A DNA stretch of 35,286 nt from Microcaldota archaeon (GCA_023270055.1 JAGDYB010000015.1:1-35286); one strand, 5' to 3'; counted from the stretch's first letter, positions 11,998-28,255 are shown. Notes: generated by a model from the letters alone, not told the origin. A program made the numbers and translations.

Positions 11998-13614
11998 ATG
12001 GATGACAAAAGCGAGAAAAAAGATGGTGCGAAATTTTCTGCTGACGAGATTTTCAAGGAGTTTAAGGAGCATTCGATATCTGAGTTTTTCAAGAAAAACA
12101 GGCAGATGCTGGGCTATTCCGGCAAGGTCAGATCGCTTACAACAATCGTTCACGAATATGTGACCAATTCTATCGATGCATGCGAGGAGGCAGGCATACT
12201 CCCTGATTTGTATGTTGAGATAAAGGAGGTCGGCGAGGACAGATATATGGTAAAGGTTTCAGATAATGGCCCAGGTATACCAAAAAAGCTTATTGGCAAA
12301 GCGCTCGCTTCGATATTGTCTGGAACTAAATTCCACCGCTATATGCAACAGAGAGGTCAGCAGGGAATAGGTGCTTCAGGTTGCACGCTCTTCTCACAAA
12401 TAACTACTGGCAAGCCCATACATGTCGAATCGCGTACGTCGAAGGAGAGCTATGCATGCGACATATCAATAGACATAAAGACCAACAAGCCAATCGTTTC
12501 GAATCTTTCTGAAATAGGTCCTAGCACTTCTACTGGATTGACTGTAAGTGGAGAGTTTGGCTATTCAAAATTCGAGAACAGCGATCACGGCGTCATAGAA
12601 TATCTGAAAAGAACGGTAATTGCGAATCCACACACTAGCATAAGGCTTAGAGTCAATGCGGAGCCAGAGATAATATTTCCAAGGTCAACAAATGTAGTTC
12701 CAGCGCACAACAAAGTTATAAAGCCGCACCCACTTGGGCTCGAAATAAACGATCTGTTGGACTATGCCCATGCATCTGATTCAAGGAAACTATCCTCATT
12801 TTTGACTGAGTCCTTCTCAAGGTTCTCGCAAGATAAAGTGAACGAACTCAAGCAGATTCTTCCGAATATAGATTTTTCCAAAGATCCAAAGACGCTTTCA
12901 TGGGGCGAGGCCGAACAACTAATAAGTGCATTCAAGAAGGTGAAATGGATTTCGCCTGAGCTTGATTCCGTATCTACAATAGGTGCGGAACAGATCAAGG
13001 TATCAATAAAGAACATACTAAATCCTGATTTCATATCAGTGATAGAGCGAAGGCCAAAAGTATACAGAGGTGGCATCCCATTTGTTGTGGAGGCCGCAGT
13101 AGCGTACGGCGGCGGCGCCGGAAAGGCGGTCGAGGGTGGCTCCGCAGGTAACATAATGAGATTTGCAAATAGGGTGCCATTGCTTTTCGACAGTGCATCA
13201 TGTGCAATAACAATCGCGGTGCGTGACATACAATGGAAGCGATACGGCATAGGAGATTTCGATTCTGAGCCCATAACAGTAATGGTTAACGTGTCGTCTG
13301 TTTACGTGCCATATTCAGGCGTAGGGAAAGAGGCTATAGCAGAGGAAGACGAGATAATCGATGAGATAAAACTTGCTGTAATGGATGCGGCACGCAACCT
13401 CCAAAGATACATCGGCGGGGTAAGAAGCAAATCTGAGCAGGAAACGAAATACAAGGCAATAATGAGATACGTGAATCAGCTTTCCATAGACCTAAGCGAG
13501 CTCACGGGAGAAGACAAAGAAAGCATACATAGAAAGCTGAAGCAGATCATAGAAAAACGCTATAAAAAACTTTTTGAGGATGCAAGCCAGAGCGAAATTC
13601 AGAGCGAAAGCTGA
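11998..13614 (+). CDS. top6B: DNA topoisomerase VI subunit B
   Basis: GHKL motifs VHEYVTNSIDACEEAGILPDLYVEI, DNGPGIP, SGTKFHRYMQQRGQQGIGASGCTLFSQ. ORF track start 11989; MDDK start at 11998 preferred. Confidence 0.95.
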   Translation: MDDKSEKKDGAKFSADEIFKEFKEHSISEFFKKNRQMLGYSGKVRSLTTIVHEYVTNSIDACEEAGILPDLYVEIKEVGEDRYMVKVSDNGPGIPKKLIGKALASILSGTKFHRYMQQRGQQGIGASGCTLFSQITTGKPIHVESRTSKESYACDISIDIKTNKPIVSNLSEIGPSTSTGLTVSGEFGYSKFENSDHGVIEYLKRTVIANPHTSIRLRVNAEPEIIFPRSTNVVPAHNKVIKPHPLGLEINDLLDYAHASDSRKLSSFLTESFSRFSQDKVNELKQILPNIDFSKDPKTLSWGEAEQLISAFKKVKWISPELDSVSTIGAEQIKVSIKNILNPDFISVIERRPKVYRGGIPFVVEAAVAYGGGAGKAVEGGSAGNIMRFANRVPLLFDSASCAITIAVRDIQWKRYGIGDFDSEPITVMVNVSSVYVPYSGVGKEAIAEEDEIIDEIKLAVMDAARNLQRYIGGVRSKSEQETKYKAIMRYVNQLSIDLSELTGEDKESIHRKLKQIIEKRYKKLFEDASQSEIQSES

Positions 13615-15980
13615 TTAAGATTGTATGTGTCTATGAGCTTTACATATCCATTCGATATACTCATTCTGAGCAGTTCAGCTTGGTCGCCATATGACAAATA
13701 AAGCTTCTCTGTAAACTCGGTTTTCTTAAGCTCATCAGCAAACACTATAAAAGTCTTTACACTGCTGTCAACAATTATATCCTTAATCTGCGTGTTATCC
13801 ACATATATTATTATTCTTGCCTGCACCCCGCCTTTGGTTATTACCATGTCTGCATTTTCGCTTTTGCCAAGCTCGGTAAACATTATACCATGCGTTATAC
13901 AGTAATCCCTGAGCTTCCTGAATATTGCAAGGTAAGCTACGCTGTATCCTGAATCAGTGGTCCATTTTACTGGCGCATAGTATCCTATGTACGTCTGTAG
14001 ATTTCCACTTGCTACAAGCTTGTTGAGTATGTTCATGGCGTTCTGCGTTGTTATCGATATTGGCATGTTATTATATCTAAGATTTGTGCTTATTCCCATC
14101 TTTACCTCATCTACGGTTAGTGGCATGTATCTCCAATGGTTGTAATAGTTTACTTTGTCAAATACGTTCAGTATCTCATCCCTGCCAACGGTCACCTCCT
14201 CTTTCTTCGTTGGTATGCTTTCAGCCACATCTATGTAATATTCATCGCGGTTTGGCGGCTTGACAATCAAGTTCAGCAGCACTATCGCAACAAGCACAAC
14301 TATAACTTCTATGTATATTATAGGTATGTGAAATATTTTTTGTACATAATTTGTAGAATATGTGTAGTTTTCGCCGAACAGCGTGAATACGAATACATGC
14401 TTGCCATATCCCACAACCGTGCCTTTTGGAAGCGCGTATACTATGGTGCCGTTTGTCACCGTTCCAGTTTCCTTGTAGCCGCCATCAAGCATCACAGTAT
14501 AAGTGGTATTAGTTATGCTGTAATTGTCGCTTTCGGCGGAAAATACGAATGTACCATTCTTGAAGTTCATTGATATGGGCTCCAATGATGTATTCCCTAT
14601 TGTAAACACAGCGCTAGAGTAGTATCTGTTGTAGAAATTGCGCAATATGCCTATATATTGCCCGCTTTTTATGCTGAAACTATACTGCTTTATCACATTT
14701 ATATCGGTCGACGTGTTAAAGAACCCTACAGGTATAGTCATGACATAATTCATTGTAGAAGTAAAAATATCAATATGTGGCGATACTGTTATAGGTTTTG
14801 TTGTATTCACATTCATCTCAACAGTTATTGGTATCATTTTAGTTTCGCTTATTATGCTCGGAAATCCAAGTGTTCCATTTTGTGAATAAGTTATGCTTAT
14901 CAGCTTGTTTTCTTCAAGCGTTTGCGTAGAATTCCTAAGCAGCAAAGTAAGGAGCGTATAAGTATTATTAAGTTCTTTGTCATTCTGCGCATAACCTATG
15001 CTTGTATCAGTTTCTGCTACCCCTAAGCTTCCAGAAGTGCTGTTGTTCGCAAGTGGCACTATCTCTGTATAGTTTGCGAGCACGTTCAGCCAAAAATGTG
15101 AATTTATGACTCTGCTTATATCGGATGCTATTGCAGTTGCGTTCTTCCATCCTGCCTTCTGGTTGTTCGAAAACGCCACTATGGTACCGTTTTCAAAATT
15201 AACATAAGTAACTGAATTGTATTTGCTTGAAACAATGCTGCCATTTTTGTTATAAAATGCGAATGTGGCATTTGAGAAAAAGAGGTTCGTGACATTCTTT
15301 GTAAGCGTATATGGTGCGGGCAAAAGTCCTAGTGCGCTCAGGTTCAGCAACGATGCTTGGGGTGTCTTAAACACTATACCTGTAGGGCCGATGCTCTCAG
15401 AAAAGTTGCCTCCTATATATACTACTGTATTTCCTCTTTTGAGAAGCTCCGTAATGGTGACATTCTGCATTGTATACTGCGTATATGGAAGCAATGCTAT
15501 TGGCATGAGCCCTGTTGGTATTATTATTATAGAGTTTGATACAGTGCCGAGGGCTGCAGCTGGTACGTAGAAAAAGTTATTGTTTATCAGATTGTACTGT
15601 TCCAGATCGTCGTATAGCTGGTCCTTGAGCGTTACTTCATTGTAGCATCTGTAACAATAGGCGCTAGCATTCAAAAGGTATATACTTGGCACAGGATTTC
15701 TAGCGTAGGTCCTCAAATCGACAGACATGTTTATGGCATTAGTTGCTGTATAATTAAACGCGGCATATGGCGATATGTTTCTTGCATTGTCATATGTGGC
15801 AAAACCCTCAGCATAAACATTAAAGCTCAATGACATGGGGCCCGGATGCGTAGGGGGCGTTATCTTAATTTTGATTATCGAAGAAAGCGAAACTCTGATA
15901 AGTACTAAAAAAATGGCAAGCACCACTATGATAATGACTGCTGCCAAAATAATCTTTTTTCTTTTTACCATACTAATCAA
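13599..15980 (-). CDS. Large membrane protein: N-terminal TM, Asn-rich extracytoplasmic region, second TM, C-terminal cytosolic domain
   Basis: 793 aa; TM near residues 8-30, many N-x-S/T sequons, second TM IIYIEVIVVLVAIVLLNLIV, then a soluble C-domain. Convergent with top6B (ends overlap). Confidence 0.75.
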   Translation of the reverse strand: MISMVKRKKIILAAVIIIVVLAIFLVLIRVSLSSIIKIKITPPTHPGPMSLSFNVYAEGFATYDNARNISPYAAFNYTATNAINMSVDLRTYARNPVPSIYLLNASAYCYRCYNEVTLKDQLYDDLEQYNLINNNFFYVPAAALGTVSNSIIIIPTGLMPIALLPYTQYTMQNVTITELLKRGNTVVYIGGNFSESIGPTGIVFKTPQASLLNLSALGLLPAPYTLTKNVTNLFFSNATFAFYNKNGSIVSSKYNSVTYVNFENGTIVAFSNNQKAGWKNATAIASDISRVINSHFWLNVLANYTEIVPLANNSTSGSLGVAETDTSIGYAQNDKELNNTYTLLTLLLRNSTQTLEENKLISITYSQNGTLGFPSIISETKMIPITVEMNVNTTKPITVSPHIDIFTSTMNYVMTIPVGFFNTSTDINVIKQYSFSIKSGQYIGILRNFYNRYYSSAVFTIGNTSLEPISMNFKNGTFVFSAESDNYSITNTTYTVMLDGGYKETGTVTNGTIVYALPKGTVVGYGKHVFVFTLFGENYTYSTNYVQKIFHIPIIYIEVIVVLVAIVLLNLIVKPPNRDEYYIDVAESIPTKKEEVTVGRDEILNVFDKVNYYNHWRYMPLTVDEVKMGISTNLRYNNMPISITTQNAMNILNKLVASGNLQTYIGYYAPVKWTTDSGYSVAYLAIFRKLRDYCITHGIMFTELGKSENADMVITKGGVQARIIIYVDNTQIKDIIVDSSVKTFIVFADELKKTEFTEKLYLSYGDQAELLRMSISNGYVKLIDTYNLNQLSL

Positions 15981-16144: not shown

Positions 16145-16885
16145 TTATCCCTTCAGTTCAAGATATCCAAGCGATACCATTTTATCAAGTATTTGCTCCA
16201 CCCTTGGTATACTTACCTTGTACGCTTGCGAGAATTCATCAAGATCTATGGAACTGTTGTGCGTTTCTATCCAGCCCTGCACTATACTCATAAGCGCCTC
16301 GTCCGAATATATTTGTAGCTTGTCAAGCTCCGCTCTGAGTTTTTTGTTTTCCTCTGAAAGCTGCGTTGCCTGGAGCGTAAGATTGCGGTTTGCAACGCTC
16401 AGTTCGCTGTTGAGTCTCCTTTGCTCACGGTATTCCGCAAGCAAATAGTCGTACCTGTTGAATAGGACACTGTAGTCCTGCGAAAGGCCGTTTATGGCAT
16501 CGTCTATTGCAGAGTCGACATACTGGAAAAACTTGACCTGGTCTATGAGAAACTGGCCCGCTATGATTGATAGTATGGATGCCATGTTTTTTATTATCGT
16601 AAGGCGCCTTATCCTTTCGCTCGTGTCTGGTGCTATCGAATAAGTGACCGTCATTCCAGAATCTCTTATGCTTACTATATAAAAAAGGAACGGCCTTTTG
16701 TGTATGTTGCGGCTTTCCACCCTGGCAATTATGAGCTCGTCCTTCTGCTGCTTGACTGAAAGAAATGGCAGCGTTGCCAGCTTGCTCGCTATATCCTCAA
16801 AGCTACCAGTAAGTTTGCCTGAGAATGCGATGGCTTCAACCTTTGGCTCTATCTCTTCATTTTTCGCTGCTTCCTCCGCTTCCAA
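16145..16885 (-). CDS. Coiled-coil protein with C-terminal winged-helix-like domain
   Basis: Heptads (EYREQRRLNSELSVANRNLTLQATQLSEENKKLRAELDKL), then DEFSQAYKVSIPRVEQILDKMVSLGYLELKG. Confidence 0.7.
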   Translation of the reverse strand: MEAEEAAKNEEIEPKVEAIAFSGKLTGSFEDIASKLATLPFLSVKQQKDELIIARVESRNIHKRPFLFYIVSIRDSGMTVTYSIAPDTSERIRRLTIIKNMASILSIIAGQFLIDQVKFFQYVDSAIDDAINGLSQDYSVLFNRYDYLLAEYREQRRLNSELSVANRNLTLQATQLSEENKKLRAELDKLQIYSDEALMSIVQGWIETHNSSIDLDEFSQAYKVSIPRVEQILDKMVSLGYLELKG

Positions 16886-16935: not shown

Positions 16936-17322
16936 TTATCTTTTATTAGCATGCTTTTCATTGACATCCACCTTCAGCTTCGGCATGTATGTCAAAAGCG
17001 AGAGTGCATACAGAAACAATATGAGTATTATGTCCATAAAGAGGGTTGTGGCGCTAGGTGCAAGCACCAGGCTCATGATAGCAAACACTATGCCTAAGCC
17101 TACATAAAGTGCTTGCCTTGATTCATACCTTTTCCTCATGCTTGCATATTTTGGATAGCAGTCCTTGCATACCACGAGCCTGTTGTTTTTTTCTGTTTTC
17201 GTAACATTAGTTTTGAACCATCTTATGGAAGATAGCACGTAGTCGTCTTTGATTTCTATGCCATCCTTTTCCTCGCCGCATATTATACAATAGCTTTTTG
17301 TTTTAGCCTTCACGCCAACCAC
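16936..17322 (-). CDS. Small membrane protein with N-terminal zinc-ribbon-like CxxC pair
   Basis: YCIICGEEKDG...VVCKDCYPKY plus two predicted TM helices. Confidence 0.7.
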   Translation of the reverse strand: MVGVKAKTKSYCIICGEEKDGIEIKDDYVLSSIRWFKTNVTKTEKNNRLVVCKDCYPKYASMRKRYESRQALYVGLGIVFAIMSLVLAPSATTLFMDIILILFLYALSLLTYMPKLKVDVNEKHANKR

Positions 17323-17618
17323 TATGTAACATTAAGCTCAACTATCCTTCCGAACGTTTCCGAAATCTTCTCCTCGTCAAGCGTATTAAAAATGTTCGAT
17401 ATCGTTATGTCGTCTATGCCTATCCTTCTGAGTATGTTTGCTATATCCTCCTGCTTCAACCCTACCTTCTGCAGCATATTTGCAAATGTTATTGCGTTCA
17501 CATGCCTGTGCGCTTTGTTCAAACTTGCTTCGAACTCCTCTATGCTCTTCTCGCTGACCTGTAGCATAACAAGCATCTTTCGCAGGTTTATCCTGTTTAC
17601 TATGAATGTATTTCCCAT
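17322..17618 (-). CDS. 98-aa helical protein sharing a motif with the VirB4-like C-terminus
   Basis: VGLKQEDIANILRRIGIDDITISNIF resembles LHLSREMVANFLRGIGFSDSIISRSF at the end of the adjacent ATPase. Confidence 0.7.
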   Translation of the reverse strand: MGNTFIVNRINLRKMLVMLQVSEKSIEEFEASLNKAHRHVNAITFANMLQKVGLKQEDIANILRRIGIDDITISNIFNTLDEEKISETFGRIVELNVT

Positions 17619-17656: not shown

Positions 17657-19162
17657 CTATTTCACGTACATGAAGCTTCTTGATATTATGCTGTCGCTGA
17701 AACCGATGCCTCTGAGGAAATTCGCGACCATCTCCCTGCTTAAGTGCAAATCGATCATTGCCTGCACCGCATACCTTATGTCTACCATCCTGCTTGCCTC
17801 GTCAAATTTCTTGAACAGCTCTTCTATTGTTGCAGGATCAACGCTGTTTTCTATGAGCTTGTTCCTTATGTCAAGCTTTTCGAAATAGTACTCCTTAGCC
17901 AACTTCTGGTCCGCAAGCTCCTCCTGCGTTAGTATCTCGGATATGTTTATTGTATAAACGTCGAGCGGTATCTCGCCTATAACCCTATCTATAAGGAAAA
18001 CCTCAGGAAACTGCACCGAGGTCTGGAATGACATATCAATGGCAGCCTGCCCCACACCAAACTTGCTTATCTCCTTTCTCATGAAGTCAGAGAAATTGAG
18101 CGAACCCTGCAAATAGTCCATGAATTTCTCGAATTTTATCCTGAGCATTATGGTCGTGCCAACGTTGGAGAATATGGCCTCGTTTATGTCTGTCGGGTTT
18201 TGTGATGCGACGATGAGCCCGAACTGGTATTTTCTTCCCTCCCTCACTATCATGACAGCGTCGCTCCTCTCATCTCCCGCGATCTTCCAAGCCTCGTCAA
18301 GCACAACTATAGCCTTGAGCCCCTTGCTTGCGCTCCAGCCCTCGGTCCTCATCTTTTCCTTCAGGGTTTGAAGTATGAACAACGCAGCCATGGCCCTAAA
18401 CGTCTCATCAGGCAAGCCCGAAAGATCCATGTCAACAAGCCCTGAGCTTGCCAGCTTGCCTAAATCAAGCGTGCTCTTCTTTGCGAAATAATCCTCCCCC
18501 TCCCTCGCGAACTGCCTCAGCCTGAATATTGCATTCTCAAGCTCGGCTGGGTATTCGTACGAGCCATCCTCAAGCTTCTCCGAAAGGAGCGATATTACAT
18601 CCTTCAGCGTAGGGGGCTCCTTGTTTGGGTCAGGCGCCTGCGCTATGTTGAAACCTGCATTTACATAAGCCTGCTCTATTGCCTCCATCGTGAGCCTTCT
18701 CTGCTCTGGAAAGTCTGCTATATCCGTGAGTATCTCAAGCGACCTTATTATCTGCTTGGTCCTGTCTATGGGCTTCGTTCCTGTAAGATCCATTATGTTT
18801 AAGTAGTCCCCCTTTGCAAGCGAAATAACCATGCCGCCACTTTGCTTTACCCACGCCCTATACTCTCCAGCCCAGTCTATTATAATCGCGTTGGTGTTCC
18901 ATATGTAGCTGGCCCTTGCCAGGAAGGTCTTCACAAAGAAGCTTTTGCCCGCTCCGGTTATTCCGACAACCGCTATATGCGGATTGGTTAGCGTGTTAAA
19001 AGTCCAAGCAAAAGGCGTGCTGAATATCTTGGTTATGCCTATGAAAATTGAGTTGGTAGGATCATTCGCGAGGAATTCGAACGGAGGCTCCGGCGGCCTG
19101 CTTAGAAAGTTCCTTTTTGCAAGCTCGTTGCTCATGACGCTTTGTATCCTTACCAATGTCAT
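17657..19162 (-). CDS. VirB4/TraC/CedB-like conjugation-type ATPase (ATPase domain only)
   Basis: Walker A AVVGITGAGKSFFVKTF; Walker B AIVVLDEAWKI; IIIDWAGEYRAW; VASQNPTDI: VirB4/HerA-superfamily signatures. Confidence 0.88.
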   Translation of the reverse strand: MTLVRIQSVMSNELAKRNFLSRPPEPPFEFLANDPTNSIFIGITKIFSTPFAWTFNTLTNPHIAVVGITGAGKSFFVKTFLARASYIWNTNAIIIDWAGEYRAWVKQSGGMVISLAKGDYLNIMDLTGTKPIDRTKQIIRSLEILTDIADFPEQRRLTMEAIEQAYVNAGFNIAQAPDPNKEPPTLKDVISLLSEKLEDGSYEYPAELENAIFRLRQFAREGEDYFAKKSTLDLGKLASSGLVDMDLSGLPDETFRAMAALFILQTLKEKMRTEGWSASKGLKAIVVLDEAWKIAGDERSDAVMIVREGRKYQFGLIVASQNPTDINEAIFSNVGTTIMLRIKFEKFMDYLQGSLNFSDFMRKEISKFGVGQAAIDMSFQTSVQFPEVFLIDRVIGEIPLDVYTINISEILTQEELADQKLAKEYYFEKLDIRNKLIENSVDPATIEELFKKFDEASRMVDIRYAVQAMIDLHLSREMVANFLRGIGFSDSIISRSFMYVK

Positions 19163-19188
19163 GATTACCAGTATATTGTTGAATTTTA

Positions 19189-19197
19189 ATATTTAAA
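19189..19197 (-). promoter_or_regulatory. TATA-like element (minus strand TTTAAATAT) upstream of the VirB4-like gene
   Basis: Located about 27-35 bp upstream of ATG at 19162, consistent with a leaderless archaeal transcript. Confidence 0.45.
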
Positions 19198-19203
19198 AGA
19201 ATT

Positions 19204-19222
19204 CCCTCAATTTCATTGAGGG
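19204..19222 (-). terminator. Perfect hairpin ccctcaat-ttc-attgaggg between the VirB3/B4N-like and VirB4-like genes
   Basis: 8-bp arms, 3-nt loop; located between the stop at 19315 and the TATA-like element of the next gene. Confidence 0.4.
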
Positions 19223-19314
19223 TTGTATAATACGCTTTTACTGCCTGTTTCACAACTTTTACGTAATTTGGTATAGCAAACTTGAATAGTAAATTGGACA
19301 AATACCATAATGAT

Positions 19315-20148
19315 CTACTTTTGTGAGTGGAATAGTTTTTCGATTTGCATCATGTCCGGTATAAGGATATAACCGAATTTAAACAACAAGTAAAGTTCTC
19401 TGCCGCTGACCCTAACTATACTTACATCCATAGCGTTGAAAACGGTTTGCAGCTGATTTATCTGGGCGTTGAGCGCGTCCATTGCCGCCTTTTCGCTGAC
19501 ACCCACCGCTGTCGTCTCGATATACATTATGCTCTTTACTGGTCTCTCTCCGGCTGAAAGCCTGTCTATCCTTGCCTTCAGCACGTTTATTTTCCTTTGA
19601 AGATCATCAATGGTCATCTGGCTGGGGTTTCCGCTGCTTTCCTCCTTTGACATCTGGTATTCATAGAAGCCCCTCTTCCCTTCAAGTTCATCCCTGTATG
19701 TCTGTATGTCTTGCGCTGCAGTAATAATGTTGAATTTGAACGGGAAATGTATATTCATCACTATCCTTTCCCAGTTGTCAGGCGCAGCAGCGAGCTTCAT
19801 ATCCTCGCTTTCGTCAGCCTGTTCCTGCATAAACGCATAATTGTAAATATTTGCGGTAAGATAGCCGGTAGCATAATAAAGACCATTTATATTCTTCAGC
19901 ACTGTATTTTGGCTTTTTGGTATTACGTAGTTCTTCGCAGGCACTATCGATATGCCGAATATGTAGGTGAATGCGGTGAAAATTATGAAATCTGCGAAAT
20001 TCATAATAAGTATGGCAAGTATTGTAAGTATTGCAAATATCGCAACGACAAGCTCAAGAGGGCCAAATGTTCTTATGACAAACAACACGAACAGTGCAAC
20101 CATCGAGGTTACCGCTATATACAATGTTGTTTCTTCATCCATTTTCAA
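19315..20148 (-). CDS. Two-TM protein with VirB4-N-terminal-domain-like region (VirB3/PrgI-VirB4N-like), copy B
   Basis: N-terminal TM pair, then PAKNYVIPKSQNTVLKNINGLYYATGYL...PVKSIMYIETTAVGVSEKAAMDALNAQINQLQTVFNAMDVSIVRVSG. Layout matches the VirB4/CagE N-domain. Confidence 0.6.
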   Translation of the reverse strand: MKMDEETTLYIAVTSMVALFVLFVIRTFGPLELVVAIFAILTILAILIMNFADFIIFTAFTYIFGISIVPAKNYVIPKSQNTVLKNINGLYYATGYLTANIYNYAFMQEQADESEDMKLAAAPDNWERIVMNIHFPFKFNIITAAQDIQTYRDELEGKRGFYEYQMSKEESSGNPSQMTIDDLQRKINVLKARIDRLSAGERPVKSIMYIETTAVGVSEKAAMDALNAQINQLQTVFNAMDVSIVRVSGRELYLLFKFGYILIPDMMQIEKLFHSQK

Positions 20149-20987
20149 GCCCCTCCTTTCTCAAGTGTCTTTTGCCTTATTTCCTCGTTTATAGTGGAAA
20201 ACGGTATAAGTTGTTCGGGTTGCGTAAGCAGCAAAAGTTCTTCTCCTGTGGCAAGTGCCGTGGTTATGCCTAATATTGCTCCAGCTCCAGCAGCAATTTC
20301 CTCACCGCGCTGAACCGCAAGTGTAACCGCTTCCTCTTCGTTTCCACCGATGGCAGTAACCATAATATAATTTATTATTGATGTTGATTTTGCCCTGCCT
20401 ACGCTGTCTTGCAGATTGCTCCACATTGTCACTTCCCCTCTTACCCTGTCAAGCTCCTTTGGATTTGCGTTCTTGTCATTTATCATCTGCTGGTATCTGT
20501 TTTCAGCCTCGTTTAGCTTGTCTCTGATGTTGTTTAGATACGTATCCCTGTTAACTATGTAGTATTGCGTGGTTATCTTTATTGGCGTCTTGCTTACAGA
20601 GACAAGTTTGCTGAAAAGCAGTGAGAAATCTCTCTTCTCATCATCGCTCATTTCCGTTGCGGATTTGTATATCGGCAGCTTTACAAATGTGCTGGCATAT
20701 ACATAGCTTCCTTCCCTTATCATTATTGCGTTGCCGTTAGGTGCCATCATGAACGTTTCCTCGTTGCTCAAAACAACTTTTCGCTTTTTCATTTTCAGGA
20801 GTGGGAAGAATAGGTACATATAGAAGCGCAGCGAGAATGCAACAATGTCCATCAGCAGCGCAATGAGTACTAGTACAAACTTTATTATGTAAGATATATC
20901 AAGGAATTGTATCACGAAGATCAGCGCAAAAGCTATTATCACAATGACAAAAAATACAAAGGTCTGGATCATTGCCAATTCAATCAC
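20145..20987 (-). CDS. Two-TM protein with VirB4-N-terminal-domain-like region (VirB3/PrgI-VirB4N-like), copy A
   Basis: TM pair, then MAPNGNAIMIREGSYVYASTFVKLPIYKSATEMSDDEKRDFSLLFSKLVSVSKTPIKITTQYYIVNRDTYL...IINYIMVTAIGGNEEEAVTLAVQRGEEI. Confidence 0.6.
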   Translation of the reverse strand: MIELAMIQTFVFFVIVIIAFALIFVIQFLDISYIIKFVLVLIALLMDIVAFSLRFYMYLFFPLLKMKKRKVVLSNEETFMMAPNGNAIMIREGSYVYASTFVKLPIYKSATEMSDDEKRDFSLLFSKLVSVSKTPIKITTQYYIVNRDTYLNNIRDKLNEAENRYQQMINDKNANPKELDRVRGEVTMWSNLQDSVGRAKSTSIINYIMVTAIGGNEEEAVTLAVQRGEEIAAGAGAILGITTALATGEELLLLTQPEQLIPFSTINEEIRQKTLEKGGA

Positions 20988-21067: not shown

Positions 21068-22252
21068 CTAAAGTAGTTTGAGCTTGCCGCTGCTGCGCAC
21101 CATGCCTCCAATGAACTGCGCAATTGTAATTATTGAAAAATATGTTATGGCCATTATCACAACAGGGAAGAACATTATCGAAAGCCAGAAAAGACCCAGC
21201 GTGCTGTTTATGTTTTTGAGTTCGAGCACGGCTGGTGCCGTGGGTGATGCAGCATCGGTAGGATTGACATATCCGGTCGAAGTCGAAAGCCTGGCGGAAT
21301 CGCTGCTCAACTCTGTAAGCAACGTCCTATTTGTGAAGTAATAAGCTACGGAAAACAGTATGGGCATGATAAAGTAAAAGCCTATGGCTATACCTATAAA
21401 CAGGCCGCCTATGCCCCTTGTTGGAAAGATAGCTCTGAGCAGTATGCCTGGTATGAGAAACACAGGTATAGCGGCATACATCCCGAAAAGTATAAAATAG
21501 AATTCTATATGCAGCATGAGAAGCCCGTCGCTGAATAGGTCCATCACCGATCTGGCAGGCAAGAGGAACACGATGTCAATTATTGGCATCAGCACATTGC
21601 TTATCACTGCACTGAGCTTTGAAAAAGCGCTGATTTTCAATTGTATGCTTGAAACATAGGAGTAATACATGATGTTATTGTAAAGAACCCTTATTATGCT
21701 TTCAGTTGTAGTTATCGAGTTGTTTATGTAAACCAGAGAGGTATTGTATGGATCTATTGGTCCGGTGACAAACGAAGGTACAAGACCAAACATGACTGCA
21801 GCAATGAACAGGAAAAACACCGCTATAAGCGTGGTGGCAGTAGCCTCATAAAGTTCGCCTATTCCAAATTCCCTTATCCTCTGGTTTTTCACAAGTGTGC
21901 CTATCATGAATATAAGGGCGCCTATCATGAACGATACCATGATTGCCGCGGCAACCGCAGGCTCCCACGCTTTCCAGTTGTTGTACATTGCCTGGTTTAT
22001 CTGGCTGCAGTACCAAGGTGCGACCTTGCTTATGTAAGGATATGCACTTTTGCAACTGCTCACGCTGCCTGGCGGCGGCGGTGGGGGTGGTGGAGGCGGA
22101 GGCGGCGGAATGCGTAGCAAAATCGAGCTGTTCAGCAGCGTACTTTTTCCTGGCACGCCATAAACATATTGTTGGGCGTGCACAGCACCACTTTCAAGCA
22201 TTATAAATAGGAATGCAAAGGCAAGTAGCACAAAGTATTTTTTCATATCCAT
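21068..22252 (-). CDS. VirB6/CedA-like polytopic membrane protein (paralog 6), signal peptide and poly-proline tract
   Basis: Signal peptide ...SGAVHAQQ; P x13; FLIPGILLRAIFPTRGIGGLFIGIAIGFYFIMP family signature. Confidence 0.7.
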   Translation of the reverse strand: MDMKKYFVLLAFAFLFIMLESGAVHAQQYVYGVPGKSTLLNSSILLRIPPPPPPPPPPPPPGSVSSCKSAYPYISKVAPWYCSQINQAMYNNWKAWEPAVAAAIMVSFMIGALIFMIGTLVKNQRIREFGIGELYEATATTLIAVFFLFIAAVMFGLVPSFVTGPIDPYNTSLVYINNSITTTESIIRVLYNNIMYYSYVSSIQLKISAFSKLSAVISNVLMPIIDIVFLLPARSVMDLFSDGLLMLHIEFYFILFGMYAAIPVFLIPGILLRAIFPTRGIGGLFIGIAIGFYFIMPILFSVAYYFTNRTLLTELSSDSARLSTSTGYVNPTDAASPTAPAVLELKNINSTLGLFWLSIMFFPVVIMAITYFSIITIAQFIGGMVRSSGKLKLL

Positions 22253-23304
22253 TATACCATCCCCACGAGCAGGCTCATGAAGTCCAACCTTTCACCGATC
22301 ACGCTCGACATGTCAACAACAAAAGAATCTATTATAATAAAGTTTAAAAATGGTATGAACAGCGCGCCAAAAACTGCATAACCTACCATTTCGACGTACG
22401 GGGCCAAAAGGGTGAAAATTCCCTGTCCTATACCATTAGTGACTATTGCTAAAAGTGCGGAAGCCATGAGCGGTATGATGGTAAAAAACGTGTTGGAAAT
22501 GCCTGACAGGAGCAGGTTGTACATGTTGTCAATCAAGCCATAGGTTATGCTTACCATCAGCGGGAATACGAATCCAAGGCCGAGACCCAGCGCTATCATG
22601 CTGCCGCCAAAGCTTTTACTCACCCCAAAGATCCTGGCTATGAGCCCTATTGCAAGCAGTATGCCAAACAGTATGAGCGAAGCGTCAAGCAGAATCAGCT
22701 GAATTTCATTTATCAAAATTAGGCTTGAAAGCATCATTGTTTCCAGAGGGAAATATGAAGCTAGCCCGTTGACTCCGAGCGCAAGTTCACCGTCAACTCC
22801 AAGATGTGATACGCCTGGCACAGGTTGTATGTCCATGCTGACAGTTGGTGGTAGTGCCTCAAAAGCCGTGTTGATCTCAAATACTGTATAGCTTGCATAG
22901 TTGAGTACATTGTTATTGAAAGAGTAGAGGTCGCAGTCTGCCAGCTGATAAAGGTTATCAGCGTTGAGGCAGTTAATCGGCGTGCTGTTAGGCAGCAGCC
23001 CAGCACCATTGTACGCACTTACAGGATTTATCGAACACATCATAGTAGAGAAAAGGCTGAATATTGCTATCAGGAAGAGCGAGAAAAGTGCATCATATAT
23101 CTTGTTCCTTATCCATATCCTTAGGTCGCTTCTCCCTATCATCGGGCTTATTACATATACTATAGAGAGCACAAATATGACTGCGAGCACGCCTGCAGTT
23201 GCCACGCCAGTCCATGCTGTGAATCCACTCGAGAAGAAGCTCTGCAGGCTGCTTGTGCAGGAATTCTGCAAAAGCAAAGGAATTATAGGTAGTATTGGTA
23301 TCAT
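22252..23304 (-). CDS. VirB6/CedA-like polytopic membrane protein (paralog 5)
   Basis: LLAIGLIARIFGVSKSFGGSMIALGLGLGFVFP family signature; multiple TM helices. Confidence 0.68.
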   Translation of the reverse strand: MIPILPIIPLLLQNSCTSSLQSFFSSGFTAWTGVATAGVLAVIFVLSIVYVISPMIGRSDLRIWIRNKIYDALFSLFLIAIFSLFSTMMCSINPVSAYNGAGLLPNSTPINCLNADNLYQLADCDLYSFNNNVLNYASYTVFEINTAFEALPPTVSMDIQPVPGVSHLGVDGELALGVNGLASYFPLETMMLSSLILINEIQLILLDASLILFGILLAIGLIARIFGVSKSFGGSMIALGLGLGFVFPLMVSITYGLIDNMYNLLLSGISNTFFTIIPLMASALLAIVTNGIGQGIFTLLAPYVEMVGYAVFGALFIPFLNFIIIDSFVVDMSSVIGERLDFMSLLVGMV

Positions 23305-24434
23305 ATTATCTTCCTCAAAATTCCTGAACCTCTTGTTGATGGTGCGCCGAGCAGTTTTCCAAAAGCCTCAACAGAATCGAACGCTATCATGAATGCAATT
23401 ATTATTCCAACAACCTGTAGCATTGCGAATGAGATACTCGAGCCGTAGACGGCGAACAATATTGAAACATCGCCTACAGTAGTTCCGAGCACCGCAGCTA
23501 CGACAGAAACAAATGTGTCTAATCCACTGCTGCCAGCGACTTCACTATATATTCTGCTGATGGCGCTATTGCTGCTAAACAAGCTTGAAAGATTTACAGT
23601 TGTAAAGGCATAAAGGATTGCAGGAAATATTATATAAAAGCCGATGAAAAGCGCTATCATCGACCCTCCAAGCGCTCTTGTCCACGGGAACGATCTGAAA
23701 AGTATGCCAGCGAACATGAAAAGCGGAAAGAGAAAGTATATGAATGACAAGAAGAAAATAACACCTACCTCAAGGGCACCAAGGCTTGCCGAAAACGATG
23801 TATAAACACCTAAGCTTGCGATTATAATACCAAGCCCAGAATATGGATGTAGAATAATCCCAAATCCATTCGGCATTAGCTCAAGTGAGACACTCTGAAA
23901 GCCACTCAGAATGAATGAAAATCCTTGCGCATACATCACATTCAATACCTGGTTTGTCACGTCGTTGACATAATTGTTGCAAATTGAAACGTAAATGCCG
24001 TTGAGGTTATTTGCAGTTGTTGCTGTTCCTACTGAACTTGGAATTGCGGCACTCGCCAGCTGTACCATTCCGAATACTATCCCATCAAGTCCTGCAATCC
24101 CAAGACTTATGAAAGCTATTATTGCTAAGTTTGCGAATGATTCTATATATTCTGTCTTAACGAATGTCACAAACTTATCGAACTTAAAAGCGACACCCAA
24201 AGCGTAAACAATACCTAAAACCATGAGTACCATTAGCACAATGAGCAATGATATGTCAAGAATACTTGTGTAAGTTGAAGTTACCCTAAGGTTACTTATC
24301 GCACTAGGCTCGCCAGTAGGCCCATTGGAACTATATAGATTACTGCAAAATGTGCCTCCTAAATATTGGGCATTCACAGTGCCTAAGACAAGCACAGCGA
24401 CCATAGCAAGCAACAAAAGCTTCATATCAACCAA
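23301..24434 (-). CDS. VirB6/CedA-like polytopic membrane protein (paralog 4)
   Basis: Signal peptide ...GTVNAQY; MFAGILFRSFPWTRALGGSMIALFIGFYIIFP signature. Confidence 0.7.
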   Translation of the reverse strand: MVDMKLLLLAMVAVLVLGTVNAQYLGGTFCSNLYSSNGPTGEPSAISNLRVTSTYTSILDISLLIVLMVLMVLGIVYALGVAFKFDKFVTFVKTEYIESFANLAIIAFISLGIAGLDGIVFGMVQLASAAIPSSVGTATTANNLNGIYVSICNNYVNDVTNQVLNVMYAQGFSFILSGFQSVSLELMPNGFGIILHPYSGLGIIIASLGVYTSFSASLGALEVGVIFFLSFIYFLFPLFMFAGILFRSFPWTRALGGSMIALFIGFYIIFPAILYAFTTVNLSSLFSSNSAISRIYSEVAGSSGLDTFVSVVAAVLGTTVGDVSILFAVYGSSISFAMLQVVGIIIAFMIAFDSVEAFGKLLGAPSTRGSGILRKII

Positions 24435-25879
24435 CTCAATCCTGGCAGTGTGGTTTCGCCACCGAGCAACTGTGACAGCCCAAGCATTGCAGATATAAAT
24501 ATGATGAGGTTTAGCAACGGCATTATAAATCCTACCACGCTCATAACCCCATAGACGTTCATGAATGCGAATACGGTGTTTATTAGGTTAGTCTGTGTGC
24601 AATCGGTGAAGAGTGGAATAAACGTGCCTGATGGAAAGCCCCCGTAGATTATACCTTCAAGCGCAAGAGCACCTCCGTAGAAAGGTATGAGCAACGCCGC
24701 TGAATCCTTGAGCTCTTCCTCAAGCAGATTGCCATTAATAGGGTAGCACCCATAGTAATATGCGACGTATGACATGTTTGGGAACACGTAGAAGTTGAGG
24801 TCATTCGAAGTATATGTTATTGTGTTGCCAGTATGGTAGTTTGTCTCGTTTATGGTAAGCACAGGAAGCGAGTTCGCACCTATGGGCGACATGCTGGACA
24901 ATCCCCCGGAAAGCGCTGAGTACTCCATTAAAATTACCAGCGGCAATATGAATAGCGCAGCTATTGCCGCGGCAATCATCAAGCCGCCGGCTCTCCTTGT
25001 GTACAATATAGATCGCATTATTATTCCAGCACCTAGTACGTAAGGCCATGCGTAAAGGAAAATGACAATTAGAAGGTCTTGCATGAATGCTAAGTAAAAT
25101 ACAAGGTCCGCCTGCACCTCAACAGGCACAGTCACATATTTTATGCTACCATATCCTGCAAGGGGCTTGTATTCAAGGTCAAAATTGACAACGCGTGGCT
25201 CAATGGGAACCAGTGCGCAGGTCCCTCCCGCTGCACCTTCGCATATGACAGTTTTAGATGTGAGGCTTCCCAAAAATCCCATCATGCCTTCGAATGTGTA
25301 AAGCCCGTTAAGGTTCACTACCGCCTCATTGGTCACGTTGGCGGATATTATGTATGTAGCGCCAAGTGCAAAATCCAAGTTGTCTGTGGTGCTTGCCTTT
25401 CCGTTGGAGTTCAAAGTGTTTTCGACCATTGGGCATATGGTATTTGAAGGGCTGTAGGTGTTTTGCTCATTCAAGAAGTCAAGCTTAGCGTTTGTGAGAT
25501 AGTTGTTGCATATTGTTGTTATACTGTTGCCGACTGTCGACTGGGCCGTTGTCATAAGGTAGCTTATTATCCCGCCCGAGGAGGTAAGAAGCGTCACTAT
25601 TATCACAGCAATAACCACGCTGCCTATGGTCTGGATAAGCTCTTGAAATCCTCTCTCCTTGAGTTTTGCATCTTTCAGCAGCGCGCCGGCAAAGTATATG
25701 CCGGCGTCGATCATTACACCTACAAGCGCGGCTACTGTAAGTATGCCAAGCCAACTGTTGAAAGTTGAATAATGTGTTATAATGTTGCTGCTTTGGGCAT
25801 TGGCGTTGCCTGTGTAAATCAGCATGCTTGCTGCCAACAGCGCGACAAGCGCAAGCCTCAGTTCGCTTTTATTCTTCAC
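24422..25879 (-). CDS. VirB6/CedA-like polytopic membrane protein (paralog 3)
   Basis: Signal peptide ...GNANAQS; LGAGIIMRSILYTRRAGGLMIAAAIAALFILP signature. Confidence 0.7.
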   Translation of the reverse strand: MKNKSELRLALVALLAASMLIYTGNANAQSSNIITHYSTFNSWLGILTVAALVGVMIDAGIYFAGALLKDAKLKERGFQELIQTIGSVVIAVIIVTLLTSSGGIISYLMTTAQSTVGNSITTICNNYLTNAKLDFLNEQNTYSPSNTICPMVENTLNSNGKASTTDNLDFALGATYIISANVTNEAVVNLNGLYTFEGMMGFLGSLTSKTVICEGAAGGTCALVPIEPRVVNFDLEYKPLAGYGSIKYVTVPVEVQADLVFYLAFMQDLLIVIFLYAWPYVLGAGIIMRSILYTRRAGGLMIAAAIAALFILPLVILMEYSALSGGLSSMSPIGANSLPVLTINETNYHTGNTITYTSNDLNFYVFPNMSYVAYYYGCYPINGNLLEEELKDSAALLIPFYGGALALEGIIYGGFPSGTFIPLFTDCTQTNLINTVFAFMNVYGVMSVVGFIMPLLNLIIFISAMLGLSQLLGGETTLPGLSWLI

Positions 25880-27078
25880 CAGAATTCACCGCCTCTCATA
25901 AAGCTGAATGCAGCAGTCAGTCCTTTCGATAAGCTGGCTATGAATGCGATTGTTATTGCCATGTCCACCGCTATAAGTACCATGCCTTGGAACATGTATA
26001 TTGCCACATCGGTTGCGACCCCAATCAATACGCTCGGAGCCGAAAGGAGGTCAGTGAATATGTTCAAGCCCGGTATGCCAGTGCCGGCCGAAAGCACGCT
26101 GCCAAAATAGTTTACTGGCAGCGAAACGCCTCCAAAAGTGTTTGATGTAATCGTGTTCTCAGTCAGGAATCCTACCGGTCTTATCACAAACTTGCTCGGC
26201 AAATAATTCGTATATGGGTTGCATGATGTGAAGCCACCAGAGCAGTAGGTCCATTGCATTATATAATTGTCGAGCACGAAGGTCATCGGATAGATGAAAT
26301 AAAGCCCTATTGCTGCGGCAAGGAAAAGGTCAGAAGCTTCCCTAAGCCGCGGCCCCATGAAAGAAAAGCTTCTCATTATTATTGCTGCGGGCAGCACAAT
26401 GACAAGCGCTGTTGCCTTTATGAATGGTATTGCGAGCCACTGAAGCAGCAGCATTGAAAAGGTCATGACGACAAAGCTTGATAATGTCACCATTGCATCC
26501 ACATAGGAGCCGTAAACTTCTGTCATGTCCAGCGATGGCCCTATATTTATGCCAAGCTTGCTGAGACCAACGAACGATCTTGCAAGTTTACCAAAAATGC
26601 CTGCCGATCCCATTAGGGAGCTTGCGGCCCTGGTAATCGCGGATGTTGTAGCAGAAGCAGATGCACCAGAGATTGCATAGGCGACCTGCCCGTCTATGAA
26701 ATATTGTGCTGTCATTGTGTATATATCGGTCAGTATGCCAGTTCCATTTACAAATAGAAGGTCTCCAACATAGCCAGTGGCGAAGGTGAATGGATCCGTT
26801 TGCGTTAGCGAGACTGTAATGTTGCAGAAAAACGAAGCAAGCACAACAAAAATTACTATTATTATCACGCTTATGCCAAGCTCCACATACTCGAATTTTA
26901 TTACTGATTGCAGCTTGGTTTTTGTCACTGTTGGCAGGAAGTTCGAAAGTATGTAAAGCACTGCAGCAATTGCGATGCTTACCAATATCACTACACCATT
27001 TATACCTATCCAGTCGTTGGTGTTAGCTCCACCATAACTGCATGGATTAGCAGCAGCTTGCAACAAAATTGGCAACAT
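25876..27078 (-). CDS. VirB6/CedA-like polytopic membrane protein (paralog 2)
   Basis: VLPAAIIMRSFSFMGPRLREASDLFLAAAIGLYFIYP signature; N-terminal TM hairpin. Confidence 0.68.
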   Translation of the reverse strand: MLPILLQAAANPCSYGGANTNDWIGINGVVILVSIAIAAVLYILSNFLPTVTKTKLQSVIKFEYVELGISVIIIVIFVVLASFFCNITVSLTQTDPFTFATGYVGDLLFVNGTGILTDIYTMTAQYFIDGQVAYAISGASASATTSAITRAASSLMGSAGIFGKLARSFVGLSKLGINIGPSLDMTEVYGSYVDAMVTLSSFVVMTFSMLLLQWLAIPFIKATALVIVLPAAIIMRSFSFMGPRLREASDLFLAAAIGLYFIYPMTFVLDNYIMQWTYCSGGFTSCNPYTNYLPSKFVIRPVGFLTENTITSNTFGGVSLPVNYFGSVLSAGTGIPGLNIFTDLLSAPSVLIGVATDVAIYMFQGMVLIAVDMAITIAFIASLSKGLTAAFSFMRGGEFW

Positions 27079-27082
27079 AACG

Positions 27083-28255
27083 TCATCCTATCTTTATCTT
27101 ACCACCTATCTGCAACCTCAGTGTGCCGCCAAGTGCTTTGGCGATTGTATCAGCAAGCGCATACACTATGATCACGTCAAATATGAACAGGAAGAACTGC
27201 AGCAACATCATTAGCGAAAACGCAGTGATAAAATTTAGGCCCGGATATATTGTTCCAAAACTTCCAAATGCCGCTCCAACAGCATCAAACGTTGTAACAA
27301 TAGAAAGTACAAGGCTCATCCACCATGGGCCGTTGTTACTAATGTTAGTCTGTGCTGAATTCAGTTGTCCGATCGTATCCACAATTGGTTGGTTCAGCAG
27401 CACCAAGACGGCAGGATAAAGTATCGAGATTGCTATGCTCATTGCGATCAGCGTGCCTCCGATGCCGCGCAGAAACGGAAAAGCCCTAAGTACAATTCCT
27501 ATAGGCAAGAGAACAAGCAGGCCAAGCAGTATTATATCATGCATTGTTATGTACTGCACGCTTATCACTATTGACATGGGTACAACGAGAAAATTAATGA
27601 AATCGTTCACGATCGACTGGTACTTCGCTACAGTTGGTCCTGATTCAAATATGCTATTTACGTACGGTTGGAACTCGGCGCCAAATGTAAATCCCACCCA
27701 TGGTGTGGGCAACGGCAGGTAAAATCCGACAACAAGCCCCTTGAGAACCCCAAGTCCGTATGCGAATTGGGTGAGGTAATTTGCTTCTTGGCCTATGCCT
27801 GTGACGCCGCTGCCTCCGCAATACAAGCTGTACAGATAATTCGTTGCCGCATTGCCCAGCGCACCAACATACGAGCCGTAGCCGGTACCGCTCACAGAAA
27901 TGCCTCCTATGGTCGTGGCAATGTTTCCTACTATTATGATGACCGCATATATTGACGCTATAAGCATTGCCGACTTGCCTATTTCCCAGTATTCATTCCT
28001 AAGCCACGAACCTATGCCAGTTGTCGGTACCAGTTTGCTTATGATGAATCCTATAGCAACCACGGCGATCGAAACGATAAGGGCAATTACTGCTATCCCT
28101 AGCACAGGGCTTATTGTTAGGCTGCTGTAGGCGCTTGTTACTTGACCCGAGCAATATGTTATGTTATTTGCGTAAATCTGCTGCGCGCTTGCTACATTAA
28201 CTATGCTTAGCAGGGCGAAGGCTATAAGCGGAAGGTACAGGTACGGCCTATCCAT
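27083..28255 (-). CDS. VirB6/CedA-like polytopic membrane protein (paralog 1)
   Basis: Signal peptide ...VNVASAQQ; LLPIGIVLRAFPFLRGIGGTLIAMSIAISILYP signature. Confidence 0.7.
   Translation of the reverse strand: MDRPYLYLPLIAFALLSIVNVASAQQIYANNITYCSGQVTSAYSSLTISPVLGIAVIALIVSIAVVAIGFIISKLVPTTGIGSWLRNEYWEIGKSAMLIASIYAVIIIVGNIATTIGGISVSGTGYGSYVGALGNAATNYLYSLYCGGSGVTGIGQEANYLTQFAYGLGVLKGLVVGFYLPLPTPWVGFTFGAEFQPYVNSIFESGPTVAKYQSIVNDFINFLVVPMSIVISVQYITMHDIILLGLLVLLPIGIVLRAFPFLRGIGGTLIAMSIAISILYPAVLVLLNQPIVDTIGQLNSAQTNISNNGPWWMSLVLSIVTTFDAVGAAFGSFGTIYPGLNFITAFSLMMLLQFFLFIFDVIIVYALADTIAKALGGTLRLQIGGKIKIG

Follow-up and report, generated by a model that had tools for sequence, protein, structure and literature searches.

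Does the apparent lack of a large N-terminal domain in a VirB4-like ATPase of Micrarchaeota mean that the VirB4 protein is divided over several genes in these archaea, and do the two genes located immediately upstream encode the part that the ATPase lacks? The question arises from a window of 35,286 nucleotides (the whole stretch of DNA analyzed here), which corresponds to contig C11 in a draft assembly of 766 kb assigned to Micrarchaeota (Microcaldota in GTDB). The first-pass annotation of the window described a detached motor partnered by two divergent copies of a VirB3-VirB4N fusion, denoted here N1 and N2. All three open reading frames are found where that annotation had placed them, on the minus strand, and are transcribed in the order N1, N2, ATPase (Table 1).

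Table 1. Genes of the VirB4-like locus and its surroundings, with window coordinates and the basis of each assignment
Feature	Coordinates	Strand	Basis
Cytosolic accessory gene, 3′ of the ATPase; coiled coil and wHTH-like C-terminus	16145..16885	-	Weak similarity, second locus
ATPase of the VirB4/Ced/HerA superfamily, 501 aa, C-terminal motor domain only	17657..19162	-	Pfam/NCBIfam matches, 92 orthologues
N2, two TM helices and detached VirB4-NTD-type domain, 277 aa	19315..20148	-	AF2, Foldseek, N1 homology
N1, two TM helices and detached VirB4-NTD1 (TrsD-type) domain, 280 aa	20145..20987	-	AF2, Foldseek, TrsD profile
VirB6-like polytopic protein 1	21068..22252	-	Similarity to neighbors and to second-locus VirB6-like protein (blastp 7e-11)
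VirB6-like polytopic protein 2	22252..23304	-	Paralogy
VirB6-like polytopic protein 3	23301..24434	-	Paralogy
VirB6-like polytopic protein 4	24422..25879	-	Paralogy
VirB6-like polytopic protein 5	25876..27078	-	Paralogy
VirB6-like polytopic protein 6	27083..28255	-	Paralogy
VirB2-like pilin candidate, 126 aa; signal-like N-terminus and two hydrophobic helices	31210..31590	-	Conservation in phylum

The ATPase gene encodes a bare motor

The Walker A motif of the ATPase (GITGAGKS) starts at residue 67, in line with the initial estimate of about 70 residues, and the open frame of 511 codons opens just 10 codons 5′ of the ATG. As originally noted, no large N-terminal domain is present in this frame, and none is encoded in the 152 nt that separate N2 from the ATPase gene. 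The same architecture is found in 92 orthologues, in which Walker A is located at residue 67–97 and the length of the protein varies from 448 to 536 aa, with the sole exception of a 1,054-aa ORF that contains an intein-like insert. In the latter ORF (L214:1666-4830), the insert directly precedes the Walker B segment (VLDEAW). An N-type gene is located 5′ of the ATPase in all 92 loci, mostly within 155 nt, an adjacency that is partly conditioned on the way the loci were gathered, most of them having been fetched via N2. In the unconditioned search of the genomes of the phylum, no fused N-domain was seen either, the open frames among the ATPase matches listed being no longer than 594 aa. Thus, no orthologous ATPase examined carries the N-domain, full or otherwise, and the motor is indeed detached. 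The ATPase is not a VirB4 protein in the one-chain sense, that is, with the N-terminal region and the motor in the same polypeptide.

The 92 equally short orthologues rule out a sequencing or frameshift artefact as the cause of the short ATPase. Three adjacent genes that are colinear with VirB4 could also be what remains of a formerly fused VirB4 gene that was broken by frameshifts, through assembly error or pseudogenization. The likelihood of such a breakage is, however, negligible given that the gene borders are the same in the 92 loci, which come from many genera and metagenomes, that the frames are intact, and that N1 and N2, which share a 4-nt overlap, possess a TM pair each; we rejected this explanation on the orthologue evidence.

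With respect to its affinities, the ATPase matches the Pfam families DUF87, AAA_10 (E = 3.5e-13) and P-loop_TraG (E = 4e-10), as expected of a VirB4/TraG-type motor. Among the NCBIfam models, the matches are to CedD (1.7e-18), the CD1110 VirB4 (3.6e-17), CedB (5.9e-17) and HerA models (4e-15), every score falling short of the equivalog cut-off and that of CedD, the best, far below it. In the phylogenetic tree, the deep forks with long branches do not separate the VirB4 and HerA kin. Judging from these sequence comparisons, the ATPase can be assigned to the VirB4/CedB/CedD/HerA superfamily, but without an exact place inside it.

N1 and N2 are homologous proteins with a predicted membrane hairpin and VirB4-like fold

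The description of N1 and N2 as divergent copies is borne out by profile comparison (hhalign E = 7e-10 over 223 columns) and by searches across species (phmmer E-values down to 3e-11). Their AF2 models, with mean pLDDT of 80 for N1 and 75 for N2, both consist of two long hydrophobic helices followed by a domain with the succession beta-beta-alpha-beta-alpha-alpha-beta-alpha. The predicted TM helices span residues 2–28 and 33–64 in N1, and residues 5–23 and 25–64 in N2. Like PrgI and VirB3, N1 and N2 are therefore predicted to place two TM helices next to a VirB4-type ATPase. This likeness rests on topology and gene order and is positional only: the TM pair has no match to the PrgI family in Pfam (PF12666), and hhalign aligns just 19 columns with PrgI (E = 0.0035). 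Accordingly, of the proposed VirB3-VirB4N fusion, the two TM helices and the gene order stand, whereas similarity to PrgI at the sequence level does not.

No credible Pfam or NCBIfam family was found for N1 and N2, either with the window proteins or in Pfam searches with 29 members of each family, and a sequence search of PDB with the N-family alignments A1 and A2 yielded chance matches only. When the AF2 models were compared by Foldseek with 350,542 PDB chains, R388 TrwK/VirB4 occupied ranks 1, 2, and 4 for N1 (probability 1.00, 0.90, and 0.85; best E = 3.5e-3) and ranks 2–4 for N2 (probability 0.98, E = 0.09). The likeness to TrwK is partial, with TM-scores of 0.26 and 0.35 by query length and no E-value below 0.001; these low TM-scores imply that the match covers part of the chain. 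Within this partial match, the models of N1 and N2 appear to adopt the fold of the VirB4 N-terminal region.

TrsD-like proteins connect the N family to the first lobe of the VirB4 N-terminal region

When compared alone with six divergent full-length VirB4s by hhalign, neither N1 nor N2 scored clearly above background; the connection of the N family to VirB4 goes via the fold and via TrsD-like proteins. The best plasmid match of the ATPase (Brevibacillus, CP139434) is encoded downstream of two genes, one for PrgI and one for a "hypothetical" protein of 332 aa. The same row of a small protein (often annotated as PrgI), a hypothetical protein, and the ATPase recurs in nine more Bacillota plasmids, and is also present in Vallitalea. 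TrsD is a remote homologue of the N-terminal part of VirB4 and accompanies VirB4 in most Patescibacteria (PMC12102498). We call the hypothetical proteins TrsD-like on the strength of gene position and a VirB4 profile match.

The pooled N family matches the TrsD-like proteins with a probability of 95.8 and an E-value of 6.9e-9 over 165 colinear columns; this alignment scores 69, whereas the best of 100 column-shuffled controls scores 18 and the reversed profile scores 21. The N1 profile alone gives an E-value of 7e-6, far above the shuffles, and the N2 profile alone gives 0.011, no better than the shuffles. The TrsD-like proteins, in turn, align with columns 33–234 of full-length VirB4 (E = 2.8e-6), and their partner ATPases (TrsE) match columns 272–860. 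Because TrsD covers the first of these regions and TrsE the rest, the TrsD-like proteins correspond to the NTD1 part of VirB4, and the domain of the N family that matches them is therefore of the NTD1 type.

This assignment also accounts for the behavior of PF03135 (CagE_TrbE_VirB), which the first-pass annotation had proposed as the family for comparison. PF03135 maps onto residues 178–382 of TrwK, that is, NTD2; it detects nothing in the window's own genome and nothing in the members of A1 and A2, and it is silent on the N genes because their domain is NTD1. The original suggestion of a VirB4/CagE N-domain thus holds with respect to the VirB4-N-type fold and the TrsD profile, with the qualification that the lobe is NTD1 and not the one described by PF03135.

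The affinity of N2 is less straightforward. In two-copy lineages, N1 could represent NTD1 and N2 could represent NTD2, such that a complete VirB4 would be rebuilt from three polypeptides, as has been proposed for CedB plus CedD, the NTDs of which can be superimposed onto distinct portions of the VirB4 NTD (PMC11868833). Indeed, the scores of N1 profiles are about 50 with TrsD (NTD1) and at background level (17–20) with the N-region of TrsE (NTD2), whereas N2 profiles reach about 38 with NTD2 compared with about 27 with NTD1; upon resampling, these lobe preferences were recovered in 10/10 cases for N1 and in 9/10 for N2. Nevertheless, we regard this assignment of lobes as rather unlikely, since N1 and N2 are mutually homologous and their predicted secondary structure elements follow one another in the same order, N2 displays no preference for NTD2 when compared with the six full-length VirB4s, and lineages with a single N gene would be left wholly without NTD2. 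We also consider unlikely a Micrarchaeota three-part VirB4 that would consist of the bare motor, N1 as NTD1 and N2 as NTD2, and would serve the exchange of DNA or protein with archaeal hosts; if true, its energy module would be uncoupled in a way that has no counterpart in the described T4SSs.

A further alternative takes the ATPase for a HerA-type DNA translocase, with N1 and N2 as unrelated membrane partners that happen to possess a generic alpha/beta fold. The matches to HerA models and the ATPase tree, which leaves the placement between VirB4 and HerA unseparated, are in keeping with such a translocase. We consider it improbable, however, because VirB4 leads the fold matches of N1 among all PDB chains searched, the match to the TrsD profile is significant, the TrsD genes, too, directly precede a VirB4 ATPase, and the neighbors of the locus are VirB6-like and pilin-like.

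Phyletic distribution and copy number of the N genes

Unconditioned genome searches detected the ATPase in 173 of the 196 genomes of the phylum and N2 likewise in 173; the absences of the two largely coincide (including families f10, f13, f15, f22, and part of f17). Detachment of the motor is phylum-wide (173/196 genomes). When named genome contigs were scanned with N2, 80 loci were retrieved, nearly all in records titled Micrarchaeota. A few MAG records titled "bacterium," "Marsarchaeota," or "uncultured archaeon" also carry N2; those titled "bacterium" or "Marsarchaeota" (L096, L045, L056, L106, L115) contain a typical Micrarchaeota locus, and their titles look mislabelled.

The presence of two N genes is more restricted. 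Most of the other families examined in the class have one N gene, which the N1 and N2 profiles match about equally; doublets were found in families f11 and f8 and in the order to which the window belongs (f1, f2). Among the 92 ATPase loci, which were mostly gathered through N2, an N pair is present in 74 and a single N gene in 18. In the tree of the N genes, the N2 sequences from the window's order and from family f11 group together. The N1 and N2 stems are both long in the window's order (about 1.8–1.9 changes per site), so that the placement of N1 is unsure; stems of such length would be consistent with rapid divergence after specialization. The N doublets may derive from one early doublet followed by losses, or from a later duplication.

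Gene neighborhood and a second locus in the same genome

The six polytopic proteins encoded 5′ of N1 (21068-28255) are mutually similar and also resemble the polytopic protein of the second locus described below, and we infer their VirB6 identity from topology, size, and position. Six tandem paralogues are unusually many VirB6-like proteins for one T4SS-like locus. Neither these proteins nor the pilin candidate have a significant Pfam match; the name "VirB2-like" is putative because the pilin candidate matches Pfam TrbC/VirB2 with an E-value of just 0.59. The pilin-like gene is conserved across the phylum, with 105 of 116 genomes carrying it. The pilin-like domain also recurs in long ORFs (G064:C8:19065-20171, G069:C2, G138:C55), with four units in one 633-aa frame and others in frames of 839–1,290 aa; from their sequences, these ORFs look as if pilin-like units had been concatenated or fused to large proteins. 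No relaxase or coupling protein was recognized among the scanned window proteins.

Two more genes are located on the 3′ side of the ATPase. The small gene at 17322-17618 has counterparts in two related loci (L181:4566-4862 and L183:12284-12580), whose products resemble part of the ATPase (E = 3e-4 and 9e-4), probably its C-terminal helical domain; such genes may represent a copy of this domain turned into a free-standing protein. Farther on, a 793-aa protein (13599-15980) combines a signal-like N-terminus and a large, presumably extracellular part with a charged tail and, around residue 570, a hydrophobic segment; it matches nothing in Pfam or NCBIfam.

The genome contains a second such locus (contig C16, ~41.8–46.0 kb; L212:5797-9984), which has the same gene order as the window. 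It comprises a VirB6-like gene, a single N gene (HMM E = 1.7e-25), a bare ATPase of 379 aa (E = 1.4e-27), and two accessory genes, one of which, behind the ATPase, encodes a product weakly similar to the cytosolic accessory protein of the window (E = 0.004). Since this locus, too, combines an N gene with a bare ATPase, the split between the N-region and the motor is present twice in one genome.

Comparison with known systems

Division of VirB4 among several genes has parallels in described systems. In the PrgI-TrsD-TrsE module of the MPF_FATA T4SSs (prototype pGO1), which is found on Bacillota plasmids and has TrsD homologues in Patescibacteria (PMC12102498), the N-terminal part of VirB4, homologous to the N family by the profile match described above, is likewise encoded by its own gene directly 5′ of the ATPase, and the two-TM PrgI protein occupies the same position as the N TM pair. 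However, PrgI and TrsD are encoded by separate genes, whereas in Micrarchaeota the TM pair and NTD1 belong to one protein; the TrsE-type partner ATPase of Bacillota retains about 240 residues (NTD2) ahead of the motor, which the Micrarchaeota motor gene lacks; and the window's lineage, unlike the PrgI-TrsD-TrsE module, carries the N gene in duplicate.

The Ced and Ted systems of Thermoproteota, which import DNA and include CedA, CedA1, CedB, and CedD (PMC9905601, PMC11868833), resemble the Micrarchaeota set as minimal archaeal T4SS-like assemblages of a VirB6-like protein, a VirB2-like pilin, and a VirB4/HerA ATPase with TM anchors, and, going by published descriptions of the Ced NTDs, also in the splitting of NTD roles over two proteins. 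In contrast to CedB and CedD, each of which has a partial NTD fused to its own ATPase, the NTDs of Micrarchaeota lack an ATPase and share one motor.

In the R388 VirB3-VirB4 complex (TrwM-TrwK), contacts between NTDs are all that holds the VirB4 dimers together, and VirB3 anchors the inner VirB4 subunit, around whose NTD it wraps (PMC9259494). The NTD fold and the association of a two-TM anchor with it are common to R388 and Micrarchaeota; unlike the Micrarchaeota set, R388 VirB4 is one 823-aa chain comprising NTD1, NTD2, and the motor, with VirB3 as a separate subunit. T4SS-type ATPases have also been described in other host-dependent DPANN archaea, namely the nanohaloarchaeal VirB4/TraG-like ATPases, which differ in that one has a fused PF03135 N-domain and the other belongs to a giant surface protein (PMC10266531). 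Relative to the TrsD/TrsE and CedB/CedD splits, the full detachment of the motor, the fusion of the anchor with NTD1, and the duplication are new.

Functional implications

Taken together, we consider it probable that N1 and N2 are a membrane-anchored, free-standing version of the VirB4 N-terminal region and that the ATPase is the bare motor of a minimal T4SS-like machine, which would also include the VirB6-like proteins and the pilin. The pairing of N and motor is supported by the co-occurrence of the ATPase and N2 across the phylum, and by the second locus, where the VirB6-like/N/ATPase order is repeated. Given that no NTD2 was found in single-copy lineages, this machine is not simply a VirB4 protein cut in two.

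We propose that, in each of N1 and N2, a membrane hairpin of two helices takes the position of PrgI/VirB3 and is fused to a domain of the VirB4 NTD type, and that, together with the six VirB6-like proteins, the VirB2-like pilin, and the ATPase, they would constitute a minimal T4SS-like machine of the inner membrane. Under this proposal, the machine would operate much as VirB3-VirB4 does. N1 and N2 would make a membrane collar at which the ATPase hexamer docks in trans, the collar doing the work that in classical VirB4 falls to the NTD:NTD dimer contact and to the VirB3 anchor. The motor could then power pilin handling and/or translocation of DNA or protein via the VirB6-like channel. In two-copy lineages, each N paralogue probably came to occupy its own position in the collar.

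Micrarchaeota are tiny symbiotic archaea that live on hosts. Our literature search found no paper describing a T4SS-like machine in this phylum, and the set of N, ATPase, and VirB6-like genes, previously without annotation, points to an unrecognized type IV secretion-like apparatus. Cryo-ET has revealed protein tubes at the symbiont-host contact, which were attributed to the host, and an unidentified barrel within the symbiont (PMC11329633). One candidate for a transfer machine at the contact between Micrarchaeota and their hosts is the VirB4/VirB6/pilin module, which is spread across the phylum. Furthermore, the natural separation of NTD and motor allows the role of each part in T4SSs to be tested, and could be used to probe why VirB4 dimerizes through its NTDs.
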